From Methanothermobacter sp. (GTDB taxonomy: Archaea; Methanobacteriota; Methanobacteria; Methanobacteriales; Methanothermobacteraceae): a DNA stretch of 64,000 nt. Positions 49,062-57,754 of the stretch are shown piece by piece (the first letter of the stretch is position 1; the number at the start of each line of letters is the position of its first letter). A program made the translations under genes and the position numbers. The stretch is from the NCBI RefSeq assembly GCF_030055435.1, contig NZ_JASFYG010000002.1:145224-209223 (forward strand). The letters run 5' to 3'. The notes beneath the pieces are model-generated. The model was not told the origin of the DNA and did no database searches. It saw nothing but the letters and a program-made list of their open reading frames with translations.

Positions 49062-50435
49062 ATGAAAAGGCTTTTCGGTACATTTGGTGTTAGGAGACTT
49101 GCAAATGAGGTTTTAACACCTGAATTTGCATCTAAACTTGCAGCGGCATATGGTTCCATTGTAGATGGTAAAATCGCTGTTGGAGGGGATACAAGGACAT
49201 CCACGGTCATGATAAAAAATGCAGTTATATCAGGCCTCCTATCAAGTGGATGCGATGTTGTTGATCTGGGAATACTGCCAACACCGGCGGTCCAGTATGC
49301 GGTGAGGAATTACTATGAGGGGGGTGTTATCGTAACCGCTTCCCACAATCCCCCAGAGTACAATGGCATAAAATTCGTTGACGCTGACGGTATAGGTATC
49401 CCGGATGATATGGAGGAGGAAATAGAGGATATATTCTTCCAGGAAAAATTTAAGAGGGCTTCATGGGATGAGATGGGTCATCTAACAGTTAACCAGGGCA
49501 TAATAGATGAGTACCAGGAGGAGGTTATAAAGAGGGTTGATGCAGAGGCCATCAGAAAGAGAAACTTCAGGGTAGTTGTGGACTGCGGTTGCGGCGCCGG
49601 ATCCTACACAATGCCCTACATCCTCAGGAAACTGGGCTGCAGTGTTGTGACCCTTAATTCCCAGCCTGATGGGTTTTTCCCTGGCCGTGACCCTGAACCT
49701 GTCCCTGAGAACCTCTCTGAGCTCATGGAGACTGTCAGATCAACGGGGGCTGATCTGGGGATAGCCCATGATGGCGACGCCGATAGAACAATATGTATAG
49801 ATGAGAAGGGCCAGTTTGTCCTCGGTGATAGGACCTTCGCCCTTGTTGAGAAGAGGATGCTTCAGGAGAACGCTGGCGGAATAATAGTTACGACAGTTGC
49901 GACATCCTCAGCAATATATGACGTGGCAGAGGAGAATAATGGTGAGGTGATAACAACCGCTGTGGGGGACCTCCTTGTGGCCAGAAAACTTAAAGAGACA
50001 GGGGGCCTTTTTGGAGGCGAGGAGAATGGTGGCTTGATATTTCCTGACTTTGTATATGGGAGGGATGCCGCCCTTACAGCCGCAAAAATCCTTGAGATAA
50101 TGGCACATGAAGGAAGGCCCCTCTCTGAACTTGTATCAGAGCTGCCATCATATTACTCCGAGAAAAAGAAGATAAAATGTCCCGATGAAATCAAGGGGGA
50201 TGTCATGAAACTGGTGACTGAAATGGTGAAGAGTGAACCGGGTGTTAGAGATATAGATACAACTGATGGCGTTAAAATCTTCAGGGATAATGGTTGGGTT
50301 ATAATAAGGCCTTCGGGCACGGAACCAATATTCAGATGCTTTGCGGAGTCTGATACACAGGAGAATGCCACTAAAATGGCGGAATGGGGAATATCCCTTG
50401 TGAGAGAAGCTATTGATAAACTTGAAAATGCTTAG
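49062..50435 (+). CDS. Phosphohexomutase (phosphoglucosamine/phosphomannomutase family), copy A
   Basis: 457 residues from ATG 49062 (TGAGG upstream). The active-site Ser loop T-A-S-H-N-P-P, the metal-binding D-G-D-A-D-R and the sugar-binding G-E-E-N-G-G are intact, so it should interconvert hexose 1- and 6-phosphates. Substrate (mannose, glucose or glucosamine phosphate) is not decided by sequence. Bases 49635-49783 are identical to a tract in the paralog at 55180-56523. Its stop overlaps the stop of the convergent ASCH-TPR gene. Confidence 0.88.
   Translation: MKRLFGTFGVRRLANEVLTPEFASKLAAAYGSIVDGKIAVGGDTRTSTVMIKNAVISGLLSSGCDVVDLGILPTPAVQYAVRNYYEGGVIVTASHNPPEYNGIKFVDADGIGIPDDMEEEIEDIFFQEKFKRASWDEMGHLTVNQGIIDEYQEEVIKRVDAEAIRKRNFRVVVDCGCGAGSYTMPYILRKLGCSVVTLNSQPDGFFPGRDPEPVPENLSELMETVRSTGADLGIAHDGDADRTICIDEKGQFVLGDRTFALVEKRMLQENAGGIIVTTVATSSAIYDVAEENNGEVITTAVGDLLVARKLKETGGLFGGEENGGLIFPDFVYGRDAALTAAKILEIMAHEGRPLSELVSELPSYYSEKKKIKCPDEIKGDVMKLVTEMVKSEPGVRDIDTTDGVKIFRDNGWVIIRPSGTEPIFRCFAESDTQENATKMAEWGISLVREAIDKLENA
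49635..49783 (+). repeat. 149-bp identical tract, copy in phosphohexomutase A
   Basis: Perfectly identical in inverse orientation to 55802-55950 in the paralogous gene. It encodes the metal-binding region from a G-C-S-V-V-T strand to D-G-D-A-D. The flanks diverge sharply at both borders. Confidence 0.9.
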
Positions 50436-51565
50436 AGGTTTTCAAGGCACTCCTCCCGGAGTATCTCCGCATCCTCATTTTCAGGGTTTAACTGGAGGGC
50501 CCTGTTGAATGAGTCCAGGGCCTCCTCAAATCTTTCAAGTTCCAGCAGCGCAACACCAAGGTTGGTCCAGTAGACATCATTCTCTGGATCCATTTCAATG
50601 GCCCTTCTGTAGCATTCAACGGCCTCATCAAATCTTTCAAGCTCAAGAAGGGCGTTGCCCTTGCGATTCCAGAGATTGGGGTCCTGTTCATCTTCAAGAA
50701 CCAGTTCAAGGGCATTGTTGTAGGATTCAAGGGCATCCTCTGTCCTTCCCAGTTCTGAGAGCAGGTTTCCCCTTGCGGTCCATAATTCAGCATTCCGGGG
50801 GTCCCTTTCAATTGCCTTCTCATAGAATTCAAGGGCTTCAAAAGGTTTTTCAGCCACCTCGAGCATAACACCCCTCCAGTAAAGCAGGGCAGGGTCATGG
50901 GGCCTTATCTTCAGCGCCCTTGAACTTGCCTCAAGCGCCTTATCCACGTCACCGGCATTAAGGAGGGTTATGGCCATGTTGTTCCATATATACGGATTTT
51001 CAGGATCTATTCTTATGGCTTTCCTGTAGTTTTCAAGGGCTTCATCGAATCTCCCAAGCCTTGTGAGATTGTCCGCCAGTCTGTTGAGCACGTAAACATC
51101 TTCAGGGTCGATTCGCAGGGCTGCAGTGTAACACAGGCGGGACTTATTGAATTTTCCTGAATCAAAGAGTATGTCAGCCCTCCTGGTTATCATGGCCTTT
51201 TCATCGATCTTTTTACCCTCCCATTCCTCTACCGGAAGCTTCCTGAACCTTATAACCTGGAATTCGGTTTCATCATCCACATCACCCTGATACATCCTTT
51301 TGAATTCTTCCTCCAGTTCTCTGGCATCCCTGAAACCATCCTCCCTTGCCAGCGCATCGTTTTTCCTGAGCTCACCGAAACTGACGGTTTCAACGTCTGT
51401 GACCACTGCCTCGAATACCTTCTCACGGTCCTTGGAGACAAGGTTCCAGTAACAGTGAAGGCGATCACCTACCTTGAGGGGTCTTTTCCATTTACGGCGT
51501 ATGGTCATGGTCCTTTTTCCTGTTACAAGGTCAATGTCCCTGCTGCTGAATGATAGTATGGGCAA
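50432..51565 (-). CDS. ASCH-like domain fused to TPR repeats
   Basis: 377 residues from TTG 51565 (GGGGGAG before it). Residues ~1-115 look like an ASCH/PUA-type barrel (G-K-R-T-M-T-I-R-R-K-W, V-G-D-R-L-H-C-Y-W). The remainder holds about six tetratricopeptide repeats (A-x3-Y-x2-A-I-x-I-D-P-E-x3 pattern), so the protein would pair a nucleic-acid-like module with a protein-binding superhelix. Function unknown. It is downstream of the nrdG-like gene on the same strand. Confidence 0.7.
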   Translation of the reverse strand: MPILSFSSRDIDLVTGKRTMTIRRKWKRPLKVGDRLHCYWNLVSKDREKVFEAVVTDVETVSFGELRKNDALAREDGFRDARELEEEFKRMYQGDVDDETEFQVIRFRKLPVEEWEGKKIDEKAMITRRADILFDSGKFNKSRLCYTAALRIDPEDVYVLNRLADNLTRLGRFDEALENYRKAIRIDPENPYIWNNMAITLLNAGDVDKALEASSRALKIRPHDPALLYWRGVMLEVAEKPFEALEFYEKAIERDPRNAELWTARGNLLSELGRTEDALESYNNALELVLEDEQDPNLWNRKGNALLELERFDEAVECYRRAIEMDPENDVYWTNLGVALLELERFEEALDSFNRALQLNPENEDAEILREECLENL

Positions 51566-51583
51566 TTTGGTATCTCCCCCCGA

Positions 51584-52288
51584 TTATTGAATTTCTTCCT
51601 CTCCGAATTCCTCGGTGCGTATCTTAACCTTCCTGAAATATTTTTTGATCTTGAGTGCAAGTTCCCTGAGCATTCGTGGTGATGGGGGCTCAAGGTCCTT
51701 CAATTTTTCATCCAGGACCACCCTGTTCCTGAACTGCTGGATAACGTAGATGTCACAGTCTATGGACTCTGCGATAATCTTAAGGTCCTCCTCGTCCATG
51801 AGGCCCGGCACAAAGGTTGTACGGCATTCAACAGTAACATCTGAGCCTGCAAGAAGACGGAGGCTCTCCCTAACACCATCACATCTCGCACCGGCTAGTT
51901 CCCTGTAACGGTGGAAGGGGGCCTTCACATCCACTGCAACATAATCAAGCAAGGGCAGCAACCTCCGGAGGGCCCCAGGGGAGTAGCCATTGGTGTCAAG
52001 TTTTGTATGGAGCCCCAGGGAACGCGCGTGCCGCAGTACTACCTCAACATCGTCCACCTGGAGGAGGGGCTCGCCACCACTCACCACGACGGCATCAACA
52101 AAGTCGGCGTATTTTTCCATATCCTTCAGGATATCTGAGAGATCAGCTTCCACACCACCGTCTATGAGTTCAGGGTTATGGCAGTAGGGGCACCTGAAGT
52201 TACAACCCCCCGTGAATATCACAAGGGAGAGTTTACGTGGATATTCAAGGGTTGAAACTGCCATTGAACCTATTTTCATTGAAATCAC
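51584..52288 (-). CDS. Radical-SAM activating enzyme, NrdG-type
   Basis: 234 residues. C-N-F-R-C-P-Y-C (CxxxCxxC) and the S-G-G-E-P-L SAM loop identify a radical-SAM activase of the anaerobic ribonucleotide reductase / pyruvate formate-lyase activase group. The only glycyl-radical enzyme in the window is NrdD at 1388-3703, so it is the likely partner. The GTG 52288 start overlaps the hisC stop (GTGA). Confidence 0.85.
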   Translation of the reverse strand: MISMKIGSMAVSTLEYPRKLSLVIFTGGCNFRCPYCHNPELIDGGVEADLSDILKDMEKYADFVDAVVVSGGEPLLQVDDVEVVLRHARSLGLHTKLDTNGYSPGALRRLLPLLDYVAVDVKAPFHRYRELAGARCDGVRESLRLLAGSDVTVECRTTFVPGLMDEEDLKIIAESIDCDIYVIQQFRNRVVLDEKLKDLEPPSPRMLRELALKIKKYFRKVKIRTEEFGEEEIQ

Positions 52289-53385
52289 GAAATGATCTCG
52301 GCGAGAACCTCAAGGAACCGTTTATCCTCCTCAAGGGTTCCAACACTCACCCTTATCCAGTACTCATCGAGACCTGAAAATGAGGTACAGTCCCTCACGA
52401 TGATCCCTCTCCTGAGGAGCTCCTCTGCAAGTTCAGCGGCGGTTTTACCAGTACCCCTCACATCAATGAGGATGTAGTTTGCATATGATTCAAATACTCT
52501 GAGGCTTTCAAAATTTTTAAGTTTCTCATACAGGTATTCCCGGCTCCTTATGGAGTACTCTGCGGATTTTTCAAGGTATCCCCTGTCCTGTAGGGTTGCG
52601 AGGGCCGCTGCATGGGATAGCCTTGTGAGACTGAATACGGGTTTAACCCGGTGCATGTACTCTATAACCTCGGGGCTTCCAAGGCCGTAACCTATCCTCA
52701 TCCCTGCAAGACCCATAACCTTCGAGAAGGTCCTCATTATAAAGATGTTCTCATGGTCAGATAAGAGGTCCACGTTGCTGACACCTGCAAATTCGAAGTA
52801 GGCTTCGTCAACAACCACAAGGGCGTCTGTGGACTCTGCAACAGCCTTTATCTCTTTCTTATCTATAAGACCTCCTGTGGGGTTGTTGGGTGTGCAGAGA
52901 AAGACCAGGCGGGTTGAGTCATCAATCGCATCAAGGACCGATTCAAGGTCAAGGCGGTTCTCCTCAACATCCCACCGTGCATGAACTGGCCTTGCATCAT
53001 GTGCCTGGAGGGTGTATTCATAGTACATGTATGATGGCATCGGCACAACGAAGGCGTCTCCAGGGTCAATGAATGTTTTACCCAGTACCTCAATGATCTC
53101 ATCTGCGCCGTCACCACCCACTATGACCTGGTCTCCATCTACGCCTGCATAATCTGCTATAGCATCATAAAGATCTTCAAGGTTTGATTCAGGGTACCTG
53201 TGGGCGGATTGAAGTTCCCCTTCCATCGCCTTCACTGCGGCTGGCGATGGACCTAGGGGGTTCTCATTGGACCCCAGCTTGATTATATCACTCTCTTTAA
53301 GGCCATAATTCTCTGCTATTTCCTTTATGGATCTTCCAGGTATATATGGCTCCATTTTATGAATTACTGGACGAACTCTGACCAT
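52285..53385 (-). CDS. hisC: Histidinol-phosphate aminotransferase
   Basis: 366 residues, PLP fold-type I aminotransferase. The Schiff-base Lys is in F-S-K-V-M-G-L-A-G-M-R-I-G-Y-G and the N-N-P-T-G motif is present. The size and overall pattern are those of HisC, which makes histidinol phosphate; some archaeal homologs may also act on other amino acids. ATG 53385 follows a GTGAT site; TTG 53400 has none. Confidence 0.88.
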   Translation of the reverse strand: MVRVRPVIHKMEPYIPGRSIKEIAENYGLKESDIIKLGSNENPLGPSPAAVKAMEGELQSAHRYPESNLEDLYDAIADYAGVDGDQVIVGGDGADEIIEVLGKTFIDPGDAFVVPMPSYMYYEYTLQAHDARPVHARWDVEENRLDLESVLDAIDDSTRLVFLCTPNNPTGGLIDKKEIKAVAESTDALVVVDEAYFEFAGVSNVDLLSDHENIFIMRTFSKVMGLAGMRIGYGLGSPEVIEYMHRVKPVFSLTRLSHAAALATLQDRGYLEKSAEYSIRSREYLYEKLKNFESLRVFESYANYILIDVRGTGKTAAELAEELLRRGIIVRDCTSFSGLDEYWIRVSVGTLEEDKRFLEVLAEIIS

Positions 53386-53431
53386 AGAATCACTCTTCAA
53401 CCATGTTTACAGTTATAGGTCTGCTTGGTTT

Positions 53432-53896
53432 TCAGTCTTCATATTCCTGCGCCAGGTGGAAGTACCTCTCTGCATTCTCCCTTATGGACTCTATCTCATC
53501 ATCATTGAGCTCCCTAACAGCCCTTGCGGGTACCCCCACGATGAGACTTCCAGGCGGGAAACTTTTACCTGAGGTGACAACCGCACCTGCACCAACAATT
53601 GAATTTTCAGCCACGAGGGCCCCGTTGAGTATGGTTGAATTCATGCCAACCAGCACATTATCCTGTATGGTGCACCCATGGAGAACCGCAGCGTGACCCA
53701 CAGAAACATGGTTTCCCACCTTCACCGGGTAACCGCTGCTTGTATGGACAACACAGTTATCCTGGATATTGGACCGGTATCCGATCCTTATAGGTTCTAT
53801 GTCACCCCTCAAAACAGCGTTGTACCATACAGATGAGCCATCACCTATCTCCACGTCCCCGATTATTCTGGCGCCTTCAAATACATGGTAAGACAC
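53432..53896 (-). CDS. Gamma-carbonic-anhydrase-like left-handed beta-helix protein
   Basis: 154 residues of hexapeptide repeats (I/V-G-x4). The three metal-ligand His positions of gamma carbonic anhydrases are kept in V-V-H-T-S-S and G-H-A-A-V-L-H-G. Enzymes of this size often act as bacterial-type gamma-CA homologs, but activity cannot be assumed. Start is GTG 53896, after GGTGGTTC. It lies 13 nt from the GlmU-like gene on the same strand. Confidence 0.82.
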   Translation of the reverse strand: MSYHVFEGARIIGDVEIGDGSSVWYNAVLRGDIEPIRIGYRSNIQDNCVVHTSSGYPVKVGNHVSVGHAAVLHGCTIQDNVLVGMNSTILNGALVAENSIVGAGAVVTSGKSFPPGSLIVGVPARAVRELNDDEIESIRENAERYFHLAQEYED

Positions 53897-53909
53897 AGTA
53901 GAACCACCA

Positions 53910-55175
53910 TCAGTCCCTTATAATGTACTCCTGTTTGAGTATAACAAGTTTATCAGAGGGCACATCCTCGTATATGACGCAGCCGGCACCGATACGGGAA
54001 CCCTTCCCAACCTTGACACCGGGATTGAAGCTTGAGTTTATACCGGTCTTCACACCATCACCGAAAACTGCTCCAAGCTTCCTGCGACCCGTGTCCACCG
54101 ACTCCTCCTTAACCCTCATATGCACAGAACCATCATCAAAACGCAGATTGGCTATATTGGTACCGGCTGCTATGTTGCACTCTGCCCCTATGACGGAGTC
54201 ACCCACATAGCTGAGATGGTTGACGTTGGTACCATCCATTATGATGGAATTCTTGATCTCAACAGCATTGCCGATGCTCACATTGTCCCCTATACATGTA
54301 TGGGCACGGAGGTAACAGTTGGGTCCAATGTCGCAGTCTCTACCAATGTAAACAGGGCCCTGGATGTAGGTACCCGACCTTATAATGCTTCCATCACCCA
54401 CCACCACCGGACCGTGGATGGTCACACCCTCCTCCACCTTTCCATGGATGGCTCCTTCAAGGCCATTCATGAGCTTTTCACTGGCATCCAGGAGCTCCCA
54501 TGGCCTTCCAACATCTATCCACTCCCTCTCTGATACTATGGCCCTTACTGGGAGGTCATCCCTCACTTGCATCATTATGGTATCCGTTATCTCATACTCT
54601 CCCCGAGGGGAAAGGGGAGTCTGTTTTATGTAATCAAAGACAGCCGGACTGAACACATATATGCCAGTATTTATGAGGTTACCTGCATCAACATCAGGGG
54701 ATGGTTTTTCGATTATATTCCGCACACGGTCCCCTTCAAGTTTGACAGCCCCAAAGGAACTGGGGTCGGGAACTTCACGGAGAACCATCAGTGTTTCGGG
54801 TTTCATATCACTGTAGGTGGATATCAGATCATCCACAAGCTGTGGATCAATTATAACGTCGCCATTTAGGACTATGAACTCGTCACTCACCATACCTTCG
54901 GCCTGAGCTATTGCATGGGCTGTTCCAAGGCGTTCATCCTGTTTCACGTAGCTTATATTGACCCCAAATTCGGATCCGTCACCGAAATGGGACCTAACCA
55001 CCTCCTCACGGTAACCGGTTATCATGATTATCTCACTGACACCATTATCTCTTAGGGCATTTACACTGTACTCCACCATGGGTTTGCCTGCAACCGGCAG
55101 CATGGTCTTGGGCCTTGTAAGTGTGAGTGGCCGCATTCTTGTACCCTCACCAGCAGTTAGGACAACAGCCTCCAT
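53910..55175 (-). CDS. glmU: Bifunctional sugar-1-phosphate nucleotidylyltransferase/acetyltransferase (GlmU-like)
   Basis: 421 residues. Residues 1-230 are a nucleotidyltransferase (L-T-A-G-E-G-T-R-M-R-P, with P-K-T-M-L-P). Residues ~245-420 are a left-handed beta helix of acetyltransferase type. Archaeal relatives make UDP-GlcNAc from GlcN 1-phosphate. ATG 55175 is preceded by GGGTGATG, which contains the stop of the upstream mutase gene, so they are tightly coupled. Confidence 0.88.
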   Translation of the reverse strand: MEAVVLTAGEGTRMRPLTLTRPKTMLPVAGKPMVEYSVNALRDNGVSEIIMITGYREEVVRSHFGDGSEFGVNISYVKQDERLGTAHAIAQAEGMVSDEFIVLNGDVIIDPQLVDDLISTYSDMKPETLMVLREVPDPSSFGAVKLEGDRVRNIIEKPSPDVDAGNLINTGIYVFSPAVFDYIKQTPLSPRGEYEITDTIMMQVRDDLPVRAIVSEREWIDVGRPWELLDASEKLMNGLEGAIHGKVEEGVTIHGPVVVGDGSIIRSGTYIQGPVYIGRDCDIGPNCYLRAHTCIGDNVSIGNAVEIKNSIIMDGTNVNHLSYVGDSVIGAECNIAAGTNIANLRFDDGSVHMRVKEESVDTGRRKLGAVFGDGVKTGINSSFNPGVKVGKGSRIGAGCVIYEDVPSDKLVILKQEYIIRD

Positions 55176-55179
55176 ATCA

Positions 55180-56523
55180 TCACCCTATCATATTTTCAAG
55201 GTAAGCACGGGTCTTCTCATGGATCTGACGGGCCTCCTCCTCGGTCTTACCCTCAAGGGTTATCCTTATATAGGGTTCTGTCCCTGAGGGTCTTACAAGA
55301 ACCCAGCTTCCATCCTTCATCGATATTCGAACCCCGTCTATAGTATTGATCTCTGCAGCGTCGGTGAACTCATGGCTGAGTTCAGAGGCCACCCTCTCCA
55401 TTACGGGCCCCTTCTTATCATCGGGGCATGGAATTTTATCCCTTATATTGGGGTAGGATGGGACCTCATCCAGGAGCATCGAGAGGGGGCCCTTCCGTGA
55501 GATGAGCTCGGCCACCCTGAGGGCTGAGAGTATCCCATCGGGGCACATGCAGAAGTCGGGGTGCAGCCAGGTCCCTGATGGTTCTCCTCCGAAATTAGCG
55601 CCCTCCTCTGCGATGGAGTTTGCCACATGAACGTCACCCACCCGTGTCCTTATGACCTGACCGCAGTCTCCAAGGCATTCATCCACACAGAGGGATGCAT
55701 CCACAGTTGTGATGATCTTGCCCCCTATCTCCCTTGCCATGAGGGCCAGGAGTTTATCGAAACTTGCGAACCTTCCCCTGTCATCCACCGCCACCATCCT
55801 GTCGGCGTCGCCATCATGGGCTATCCCCAGATCAGCCCCCGTTGATCTGACAGTCTCCATGAGCTCAGAGAGGTTCTCAGGGACAGGTTCAGGGTCACGG
55901 CCAGGGAAAAACCCATCAGGCTGGGAATTAAGGGTCACAACACTGCAGCCGGCCATCCTGAATATGAGCGGTGATAGGTGGGAGGCTGCACCGCAGCCAC
56001 AGTCAATTACCACCTTGAGGGGTTTTTCTATATTGACCATTCCAGCGACGGCATCAGCATAGTCATCCCTGAGGTCAGCTTCCTTCACTGAGCCGAGGCC
56101 ATCCCATCCCCTCATCTTAAATTCTCTGGAATGAATGATTGATTCTATGATGCGTTCCTGTGATGGGCTGTAGGCCATTCCATCTGGGTTCCAGAGCTTT
56201 ATGCCATTGTAGGGTGCGGGGTTGTGGGATGCTGTTATCATTACACCGGCGTCGGCACCCAGCCTTGAAGTGGCGTAACCAACAAGGGGTGTTGGCACCA
56301 TTCCGAGTCTGATGACGTCACAGCCACACTCGATTATCCCTGCAATCAGGGCACTTTCAAGGAGCTGGCTGGATGTTCTCGTGTCATAGCCAACAACGAC
56401 CTTACCCCCTCCTAGGTGGGTTGCAAGGGCCCTTCCAACATCCACCGCAAGTTCAAGCGTCACCTTCTCCCCAAAGCGACCCCTTATGCCAGATGTCCCG
56501 AATAATCGCTTTTTCTGCTTCAT
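55180..56523 (-). CDS. glmM: Phosphoglucosamine mutase-like phosphohexomutase, copy B
   Basis: 447 residues. T-S-G-I-R-G start, catalytic T-A-S-H-N-P-A and metal-binding D-G-D-A-D-R are intact. Direct coupling to glmU suggests conversion of GlcN 6-phosphate to GlcN 1-phosphate. It shares a 149-bp identical tract (55802-55950) with the mutase at 49062-50435, though the rest of the two proteins is only moderately similar. It begins 1 nt after the apgM stop. Confidence 0.87.
   Translation of the reverse strand: MKQKKRLFGTSGIRGRFGEKVTLELAVDVGRALATHLGGGKVVVGYDTRTSSQLLESALIAGIIECGCDVIRLGMVPTPLVGYATSRLGADAGVMITASHNPAPYNGIKLWNPDGMAYSPSQERIIESIIHSREFKMRGWDGLGSVKEADLRDDYADAVAGMVNIEKPLKVVIDCGCGAASHLSPLIFRMAGCSVVTLNSQPDGFFPGRDPEPVPENLSELMETVRSTGADLGIAHDGDADRMVAVDDRGRFASFDKLLALMAREIGGKIITTVDASLCVDECLGDCGQVIRTRVGDVHVANSIAEEGANFGGEPSGTWLHPDFCMCPDGILSALRVAELISRKGPLSMLLDEVPSYPNIRDKIPCPDDKKGPVMERVASELSHEFTDAAEINTIDGVRISMKDGSWVLVRPSGTEPYIRITLEGKTEEEARQIHEKTRAYLENMIG
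55802..55950 (-). repeat. 149-bp identical tract, copy in phosphohexomutase B
   Basis: Inverse-orientation identical partner of 49635-49783. The ends coincide with abrupt loss of similarity, as expected for a conversion tract. Confidence 0.9.
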
Positions 56524-56524
56524 T

Positions 56525-57754
56525 TTAAGCCCCGAATTTTTCTTTTCTGTTCATGAGGTCAAGTAGTATGTCCATGACGTCAGATCCCTTTATCCTGCAT
56601 AGACCGCCAGCAGCCGCGGCCCTTTCACCGAATACACTCACATCATCAACCCTGACCTCTGGCCCGTTTATTGTGATGGGGACAGGGTCCCCTGTGTGGT
56701 CCCTGACGGATACCGGTGTTGAATGGTCCGCAGTGAGTATGAAGTAGATGTCATCGCGTATAATGTCACCGAGGATGGAGTCAACCATCTCTATGAACTC
56801 AACCTTACCCTCAAGGTCCCCATCATGTCCTGCCTCGTCTGCACCATCTATGTTTATGAGCAGAAACTCGTATTCATCATCAAGGGCATCTTTTATCGCA
56901 TTCTTTATACTCTCCAGGTCGGTGTCTGTACCCCCGGTGGCCCCTTCAACATCAATCACATCCATTCCTGCGATGTGCCCTATACCCTTTATGAGACCTG
57001 TCTCAGCGATACAGGCTGCTCTAAGACCGTAACGGTCCTCAAATTTTTCAACGTCAGGAACAGCACCCGCACCTCTTGGCAGTATTATATTTGCAGGCGC
57101 TTCTCCATTTTTGATTCTTTCGGTGTTCACGGGATTGTCCCTGAGGATTTCATAGGATTCCCTCACAAGTATGTTAAGTATATCGGCGGTTTTCTGTGAT
57201 TCAGGGGATCCATCAAGGGCCTTCACCTTCTTTGGGGGCTTTCCTTCAGTTTTGGGGTCTGCATCTGATACATTATCACCCAGCCCGGGACCTCTGAGGA
57301 CCAGGACGGCCCTGTGGCCTGTTGACTCCCTGAAGATTATTTCAACGTCCTCAAATCCATCGAGGGTCATTGAGTTGATGGCCTCAGCTATCTGGGATGT
57401 CCCTGATCTTATTCTTCCTGCCCTCCTGTCGGTTATCACAAGGTCATCGTCTGCGGTTGCAAAGTTGCATCTGAATGCAATGTCCCCTGGCCTCACATCC
57501 AGCCCCACGCCCGCAGCCTCGAAGGGACCCCGTCCGGTGTATACAGTGTAGGGGTCATATCCCAGTATGGATAGGTGTGATGTGTCGCTTCCTGCACGGA
57601 TCCCGGGTTTTATGGGATCCATTATACCATTGATACCTGAACTGGCCAGCCTGTCCATATTGGGGGTTTTCGCGGCCTCAAGAGGTGTTTTACCTCCGAG
57701 GCTTTCAATGGGGCGGTCGGCCATTCCATCTATTATCATTATTACCCCTTTCAT
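56525..57754 (-). CDS. apgM: 2,3-bisphosphoglycerate-independent phosphoglycerate mutase, archaeal type
   Basis: 409 residues, alkaline-phosphatase superfamily. The metal-binding start is I-I-D-G-M-A-D-R-P, the nucleophile region is G-S-D-T-S-H-L, and late D-G-A-D-E-A-G-H-D and T-A-D-H-S-T segments give the other metal ligands. It interconverts 3- and 2-phosphoglycerate in gluconeogenesis. ATG 57754 follows GGTGGG. It heads a run into glmM and glmU. Confidence 0.93.
   Translation of the reverse strand: MKGVIMIIDGMADRPIESLGGKTPLEAAKTPNMDRLASSGINGIMDPIKPGIRAGSDTSHLSILGYDPYTVYTGRGPFEAAGVGLDVRPGDIAFRCNFATADDDLVITDRRAGRIRSGTSQIAEAINSMTLDGFEDVEIIFRESTGHRAVLVLRGPGLGDNVSDADPKTEGKPPKKVKALDGSPESQKTADILNILVRESYEILRDNPVNTERIKNGEAPANIILPRGAGAVPDVEKFEDRYGLRAACIAETGLIKGIGHIAGMDVIDVEGATGGTDTDLESIKNAIKDALDDEYEFLLINIDGADEAGHDGDLEGKVEFIEMVDSILGDIIRDDIYFILTADHSTPVSVRDHTGDPVPITINGPEVRVDDVSVFGERAAAAGGLCRIKGSDVMDILLDLMNRKEKFGA

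Follow-up and report, generated by a model that had tools for sequence, protein, structure and literature searches.

A perfectly shared tract in two diverged mutase genes

How can two genes whose proteins are otherwise only ~40% identical share a stretch of 149 bases without a single mismatch? Both genes lie in a 64-kb window, by which we mean the whole stretch of Methanothermobacter DNA analysed here. Gene A (49062..50435, + strand) encodes a PMM/PGM-like phosphohexomutase whose nearest solved structures in the PDB are 9du5_A (1.4e-154) and 1wqa_A (6.5e-151), and gene B (55180..56523, − strand) encodes a phosphoglucosamine mutase-like protein. All four PGM_PMM domains (I–IV, Pfam) are present in both proteins, which score 602 bits (A) and 552 bits (B) against the archaeal GlmM model (TIGR03990 Arch_GlmM; cut-off 439). 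Although both pass this model, they carry different sugar-loop motifs, GGEENGG in A and GGEPSGT in B, and judging from sequence, at most one of them need be GlmM. Gene B is the likely GlmM because its neighbour is a GlmU-like gene (53910-55175, − strand; name read from the ORF). The two genes are anciently duplicated phosphohexomutase paralogs, and their proteins are 42% identical to the left of the shared tract, 39% to its right, and 100% within it.

The tract comprises bases 49635-49783 in gene A (+ strand) and is the reverse complement of 55802-55950 in gene B (− strand), with 149/149 bases matching and an extension of 0 bases beyond either end. The initial annotation had reported this inverted match as perfect, the proteins as clearly different outside it (LSSGCDVV versus IECGCDVI), and the DGDAD motif as lying inside it. 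Identity and protein differences were confirmed, and the motif is indeed there, at the right-hand end, with only the first two bases of its final D codon (GAT in A, GAC in B) inside the tract. The tract forms the perfectly matching centre of a longer, weaker inverted repeat of 251 nt (49536..49786, + strand, and 55799..56049, − strand; 83% identical in the repeat search), which is the one repeat of at least 30 nt found in the window. No third copy was found in the genome with either the tract or a 20-kb query. Only a few codons outside the tract, the DNA identity of the two genes drops to ~50%. Their second-longest exact match is 14 nt, so that a chance origin of the 149-nt match is far excluded. 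Numbered from Met, the tract covers codons 192–241 of the 457-aa gene A protein and encodes the second half of Pfam domain II, finishing in the DGDAD/DGDADR metal loop.

Both copies change together within the genus

The genus sample consists of eight species genomes, one per species, a comparison that has population polymorphism outside its view. We found the A/B pair in 8/8 congeners, in identical gene order (tblastn), and the tract is concerted in all of them: its two copies are 93–99% identical within each genome, and the adjacent 40 codons are 46–58% identical. In the source genome, the fourfold degenerate sites of A and B differ at 0/24 positions in the tract and at 57/86 in the flanks, which bears out the expectation of the initial annotation that identity would be confined to the tract. 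Pooled over the genomes, 0.08 of the fourfold tract sites differ between A and B within a genome, against 0.35 between species for A, 0.36 for B, and 0.36 for A versus B (flanks: 0.42–0.43). With 8% difference within genomes and 35–36% between species, the tract sequence is copied and not frozen. Conversion is not equally recent in all genomes, since G003 has 7/24 fourfold differences between its two tract copies.

Sites that vary between species while A equals B in every genome were called concerted. Across the eight genomes, the tract has 22 concerted sites and 0 paralog-fixed sites, and the flanks have 4 and 300, respectively. The two copies thus change together in related species, as the initial annotation had anticipated; its reading of a recent gene conversion holds for the conversion but not for a single recent event, and the identity seen in the source genome is the latest round of recurrent concerted evolution.

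Changes found in one species alone, and there in both tract copies, number one each in G000, G002, G003, and G004, two in G006, and eight in G007. Altogether, six single-species lineages and three internal branches carry at least one change that is present in both copies and absent elsewhere in the genus, including five such changes on the branch leading to G002 and G005. A lone shared site could have arisen by parallel mutation, but eight in G007 and five in G002 and G005 could not reasonably be. In G007, the eight both-copy sites are drawn from 13 unique changes in the A tract and 10 in the B tract; its flanks have 6 both-copy sites among 120 (A) and 155 (B) unique changes, and the flanks of the shallow single-species lineages have 0. 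Some of these marks reach the protein level, with ELMD in both copies of G004, ELMDA in both copies of G006, and TVKS in both copies of G007. Permuting the partners gave a mean tract difference of 0.044 for copies from the same genome versus 0.229 for copies from other genomes (0 of 20000 permutations). The flanks showed small excesses in the same test (0.470 vs 0.485, p 0.0006; 0.496 vs 0.510, p 0.003), which probably reflect common base composition.

Trees and gene order

In the tree of the flanks, the A sequences form one clade and the B sequences another, with support of 100/100. In the tract tree, A and B are mixed by lineage, with 11 label changes. Monophyly of the genus's A copies is rejected for the tract (p-AU 0.002), and grouping the genus's A and B copies together is rejected for the flanks (1e-43). 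For the tract, no ortholog is nearer than the own paralog in 8/12 genomes; for the flanks, this holds in 0/12. Had the inverted tracts recombined by crossover, the interval between them would be inverted and the genes would be hybrids. No interval inverted relative to its flanks was seen in the gene order of the eight congeners (tblastn), nor were hybrid genes, and homogenisation has thus proceeded without crossover products.

The tract in other families

The same tract is homogenised in at least 12 genomes from three archaeal families. A second family (f3) is represented by three genomes, in which the tract copies are 94–97% identical and the genes are in direct orientation with starts ~11–12 kb apart; over the genus and these genomes, the adjacent 40 codons show 46–60% identity between A and B. 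The phylum-wide search gave a single genome outside the order, of the 'same class' (G150), which we take to be Methanothermus fervidus. Here, A (532959-534305) and B (134887-136212) are ~397 kb apart, the tract matches at 150/153 positions, and the homogenised segment reaches further left (218/220). The tract of this presumed M. fervidus is only 63–65% identical to that of Methanothermobacter. The right edge of the homogenised region falls within codons 238–243, at DGDADR, in 12/12 genomes, and the left edge lies anywhere from codon 169 to codon 198 in the same twelve (window gene A numbering, from Met).

Beyond the genus, gene A has close relatives in Methanobrevibacter and Methanosphaera, on which basis we take a further family (f2) to be Methanobacteriaceae. 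Its members keep both genes, and across 20 genomes the region is 64–77% identical between A and B, and no exact match exceeds 39 nt; another seven f2 genomes were left out of the pair table as the start-motif filter missed one of their genes. The Methanobacteriaceae are thus without recent conversion, even where the two genes are close and inverted. Depending on how the families branch, there may have been one ancient onset followed by loss in the Methanobacteriaceae, or several onsets.

In four genomes of the Methanobacteriaceae (G023 and G032, g7; G045, g10; G058, g14), the tract identity between A and B is 0.73–0.77, and the cross-genus mean is 0.65–0.68. The weak excess in g7, g10, and g14, which does not clearly exceed the cross-genus maximum, possibly represents remains of older conversion. 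Gene B of the draft genome G011 (L197:1303-2717) contains an apparent duplicated stretch of ~77 nt within the tract, accompanied by a frameshift. Its size points to an erroneous k-mer join at the repeat and not to a biological event.

Gene conversion and its alternatives

On the comparisons above, recurrent ectopic gene conversion without crossover very probably exchanges a single patch between two ancient phosphohexomutase paralogs. The patch measures ~130–220 bp and encodes the latter half of catalytic domain II as far as the DGDADR metal loop. RadA-dependent strand invasion would require near-identity, which conversion itself would maintain; the patch may thus be self-sustaining, with flanks of ~50% nucleotide identity too diverged to pair. 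Selection would eliminate longer conversions that carry over substrate-specific parts such as the sugar loop (GGEENGG in A, GGEPSGT in B), and the patch would be interchangeable if it performs the same metal-binding chemistry in both enzymes. Once the patch has drifted too far apart, as in the Methanobacteriaceae, conversion would be expected to stop. That neither distance nor orientation is a bar is as expected for homologous recombination by strand invasion, and not for a local switch.

Several other processes could make the two tracts alike. The region is among the most conserved of both enzymes, and in the Methanobacteriaceae it has 64–77% DNA identity against ~42–65% in the flanks, which is what purifying selection on the protein alone would leave; yet fourfold sites agree as well (0.08 within genomes) and differ by 0.36 between species, and species-specific synonymous and amino-acid changes are common to both copies. 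The synonymous data refute protein-level selection as the main cause, and we consider it exceedingly improbable. A constrained nucleic-acid element (an RNA, a regulatory sequence, or a recombination site) whose sequence is needed in both genes would account for the location and near-constant right edge across families, and for a between-species divergence of the tract (0.35–0.36) slightly below that of the flanks (0.42–0.43). The tract is nevertheless translated in both genes and free to change between species (63–65% identity between the presumed M. fervidus and Methanothermobacter) while staying paired within genomes; this between-species change and the absence of an Rfam match for the tract rule out such an element as the main cause, and it retains very little probability. 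Much the same holds for a phase-variation switch, in which site-specific or homologous inversion between the repeats would swap gene halves. The tracts are inverted, ~6 kb apart, and inside two genes, so that a crossover would exchange the C-terminal halves, but only one orientation of the interval exists in 8/8 congeners, which eliminates an invertible switch as the main cause. The flank halves moreover sort together by paralog, the f3 tracts are in direct orientation, and the presumed M. fervidus genes are ~397 kb apart.

The source genome is a draft (1.67 Mb, 10 contigs), and its perfect 149/149 identity rests on this one assembly. An assembler that made the copies identical could produce such a match, and the duplicated stretch that breaks gene B of G011 is the kind of damage that repeats do in drafts. 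The homogenised tract itself is independent of the draft: the single-contig genomes G005, G007, G009, and G150 have it too, with a few real differences between the copies, so that assembly error is ruled out as the main cause and carries a negligible probability. A different kind of alternative accepts conversion and asks whether it is actively favoured, through a common partner, a hetero-oligomer interface, or the purging of catalytic-loop mutations. Its persistence over three families with a near-fixed edge speaks for this, and a similar argument has been made for mtrA (PMC4632066); homogenisation was nevertheless lost in the Methanobacteriaceae although both genes were kept, and we regard favoured conversion as rather unlikely. 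That identity itself is selected, for example if domain II of both enzymes binds one partner or forms a mixed oligomer, appears more doubtful still; if true, conversion with a near-fixed edge would serve adaptively to tie the evolution of the two enzymes together during much of the order's history.

Relation to known gene conversion

Recurrent conversion between A and B is a new, well-supported case of the known phenomenon of long-lasting regional conversion between ancient paralogs, most closely paralleled by mtrA-1/mtrA-2 of Methanococcales and Methanomicrobiales (PMC4632066). There too, one conserved domain of ancient methanogen paralogs is homogenised per species, over whole orders, while the other part diverges. 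The mtrA genes belong to one operon and have an entire MtrA domain converted, whereas A and B share a patch of ~130–220 bp, at distances between 6 kb and ~397 kb and in direct or inverted orientation; their patch is unusually short and spread wide. In RF1/RF2 of Bacteroidia and Chloroflexi, conversion is likewise confined to the part that does the same job in functionally distinct paralogs (domain 3), but consists of two old single events (PMC4530459) and is not recurrent as in A and B. A report on the tuf genes of Salmonella describes ectopic copying between duplicate genes, within whole-gene bounds (PMC5485169), unlike the short patch in our ~40%-identical proteins. Efficient gene conversion in archaea is documented in polyploid Haloferax volcanii, where it is intermolecular and allelic, between genome copies (PMC8223754, PMC11276520), and not ectopic between paralogs. 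The literature that we searched yielded nothing on such conversion in phosphohexomutases, and no useful match on conversion tract length in Sulfolobus.

The pair is a natural experiment on the minimum length and the persistence of ectopic gene conversion, with an island of ~150 bp in proteins otherwise ~40% identical that is repeatedly re-homogenised in three families. With this pair, one can test how little homology conversion in archaea needs and whether it sustains itself. The pair is also a warning: phylogenies and annotations of these mutases that draw on the conserved central region will mix the two paralogs.

Gene neighbourhood

The interval between the two genes (50432..55175, − strand) encodes TPR, radical-SAM, HisC-like, gamma-carbonic-anhydrase-like, and GlmU-like proteins, names that are read from the ORFs and not from searches with the individual genes. 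Gene B is part of a run on the − strand (51584-57754) with the order radical-SAM, HisC-like, gamma-carbonic-anhydrase-like, GlmU-like, GlmM-like, and archaeal phosphoglycerate-mutase-like, which is kept in the eight congeners. The ORF at 50432-51565 (− strand) reads as an N-terminal ASCH-like part joined to TPR repeats, and its 3' end shares 4 bases with the end of gene A.
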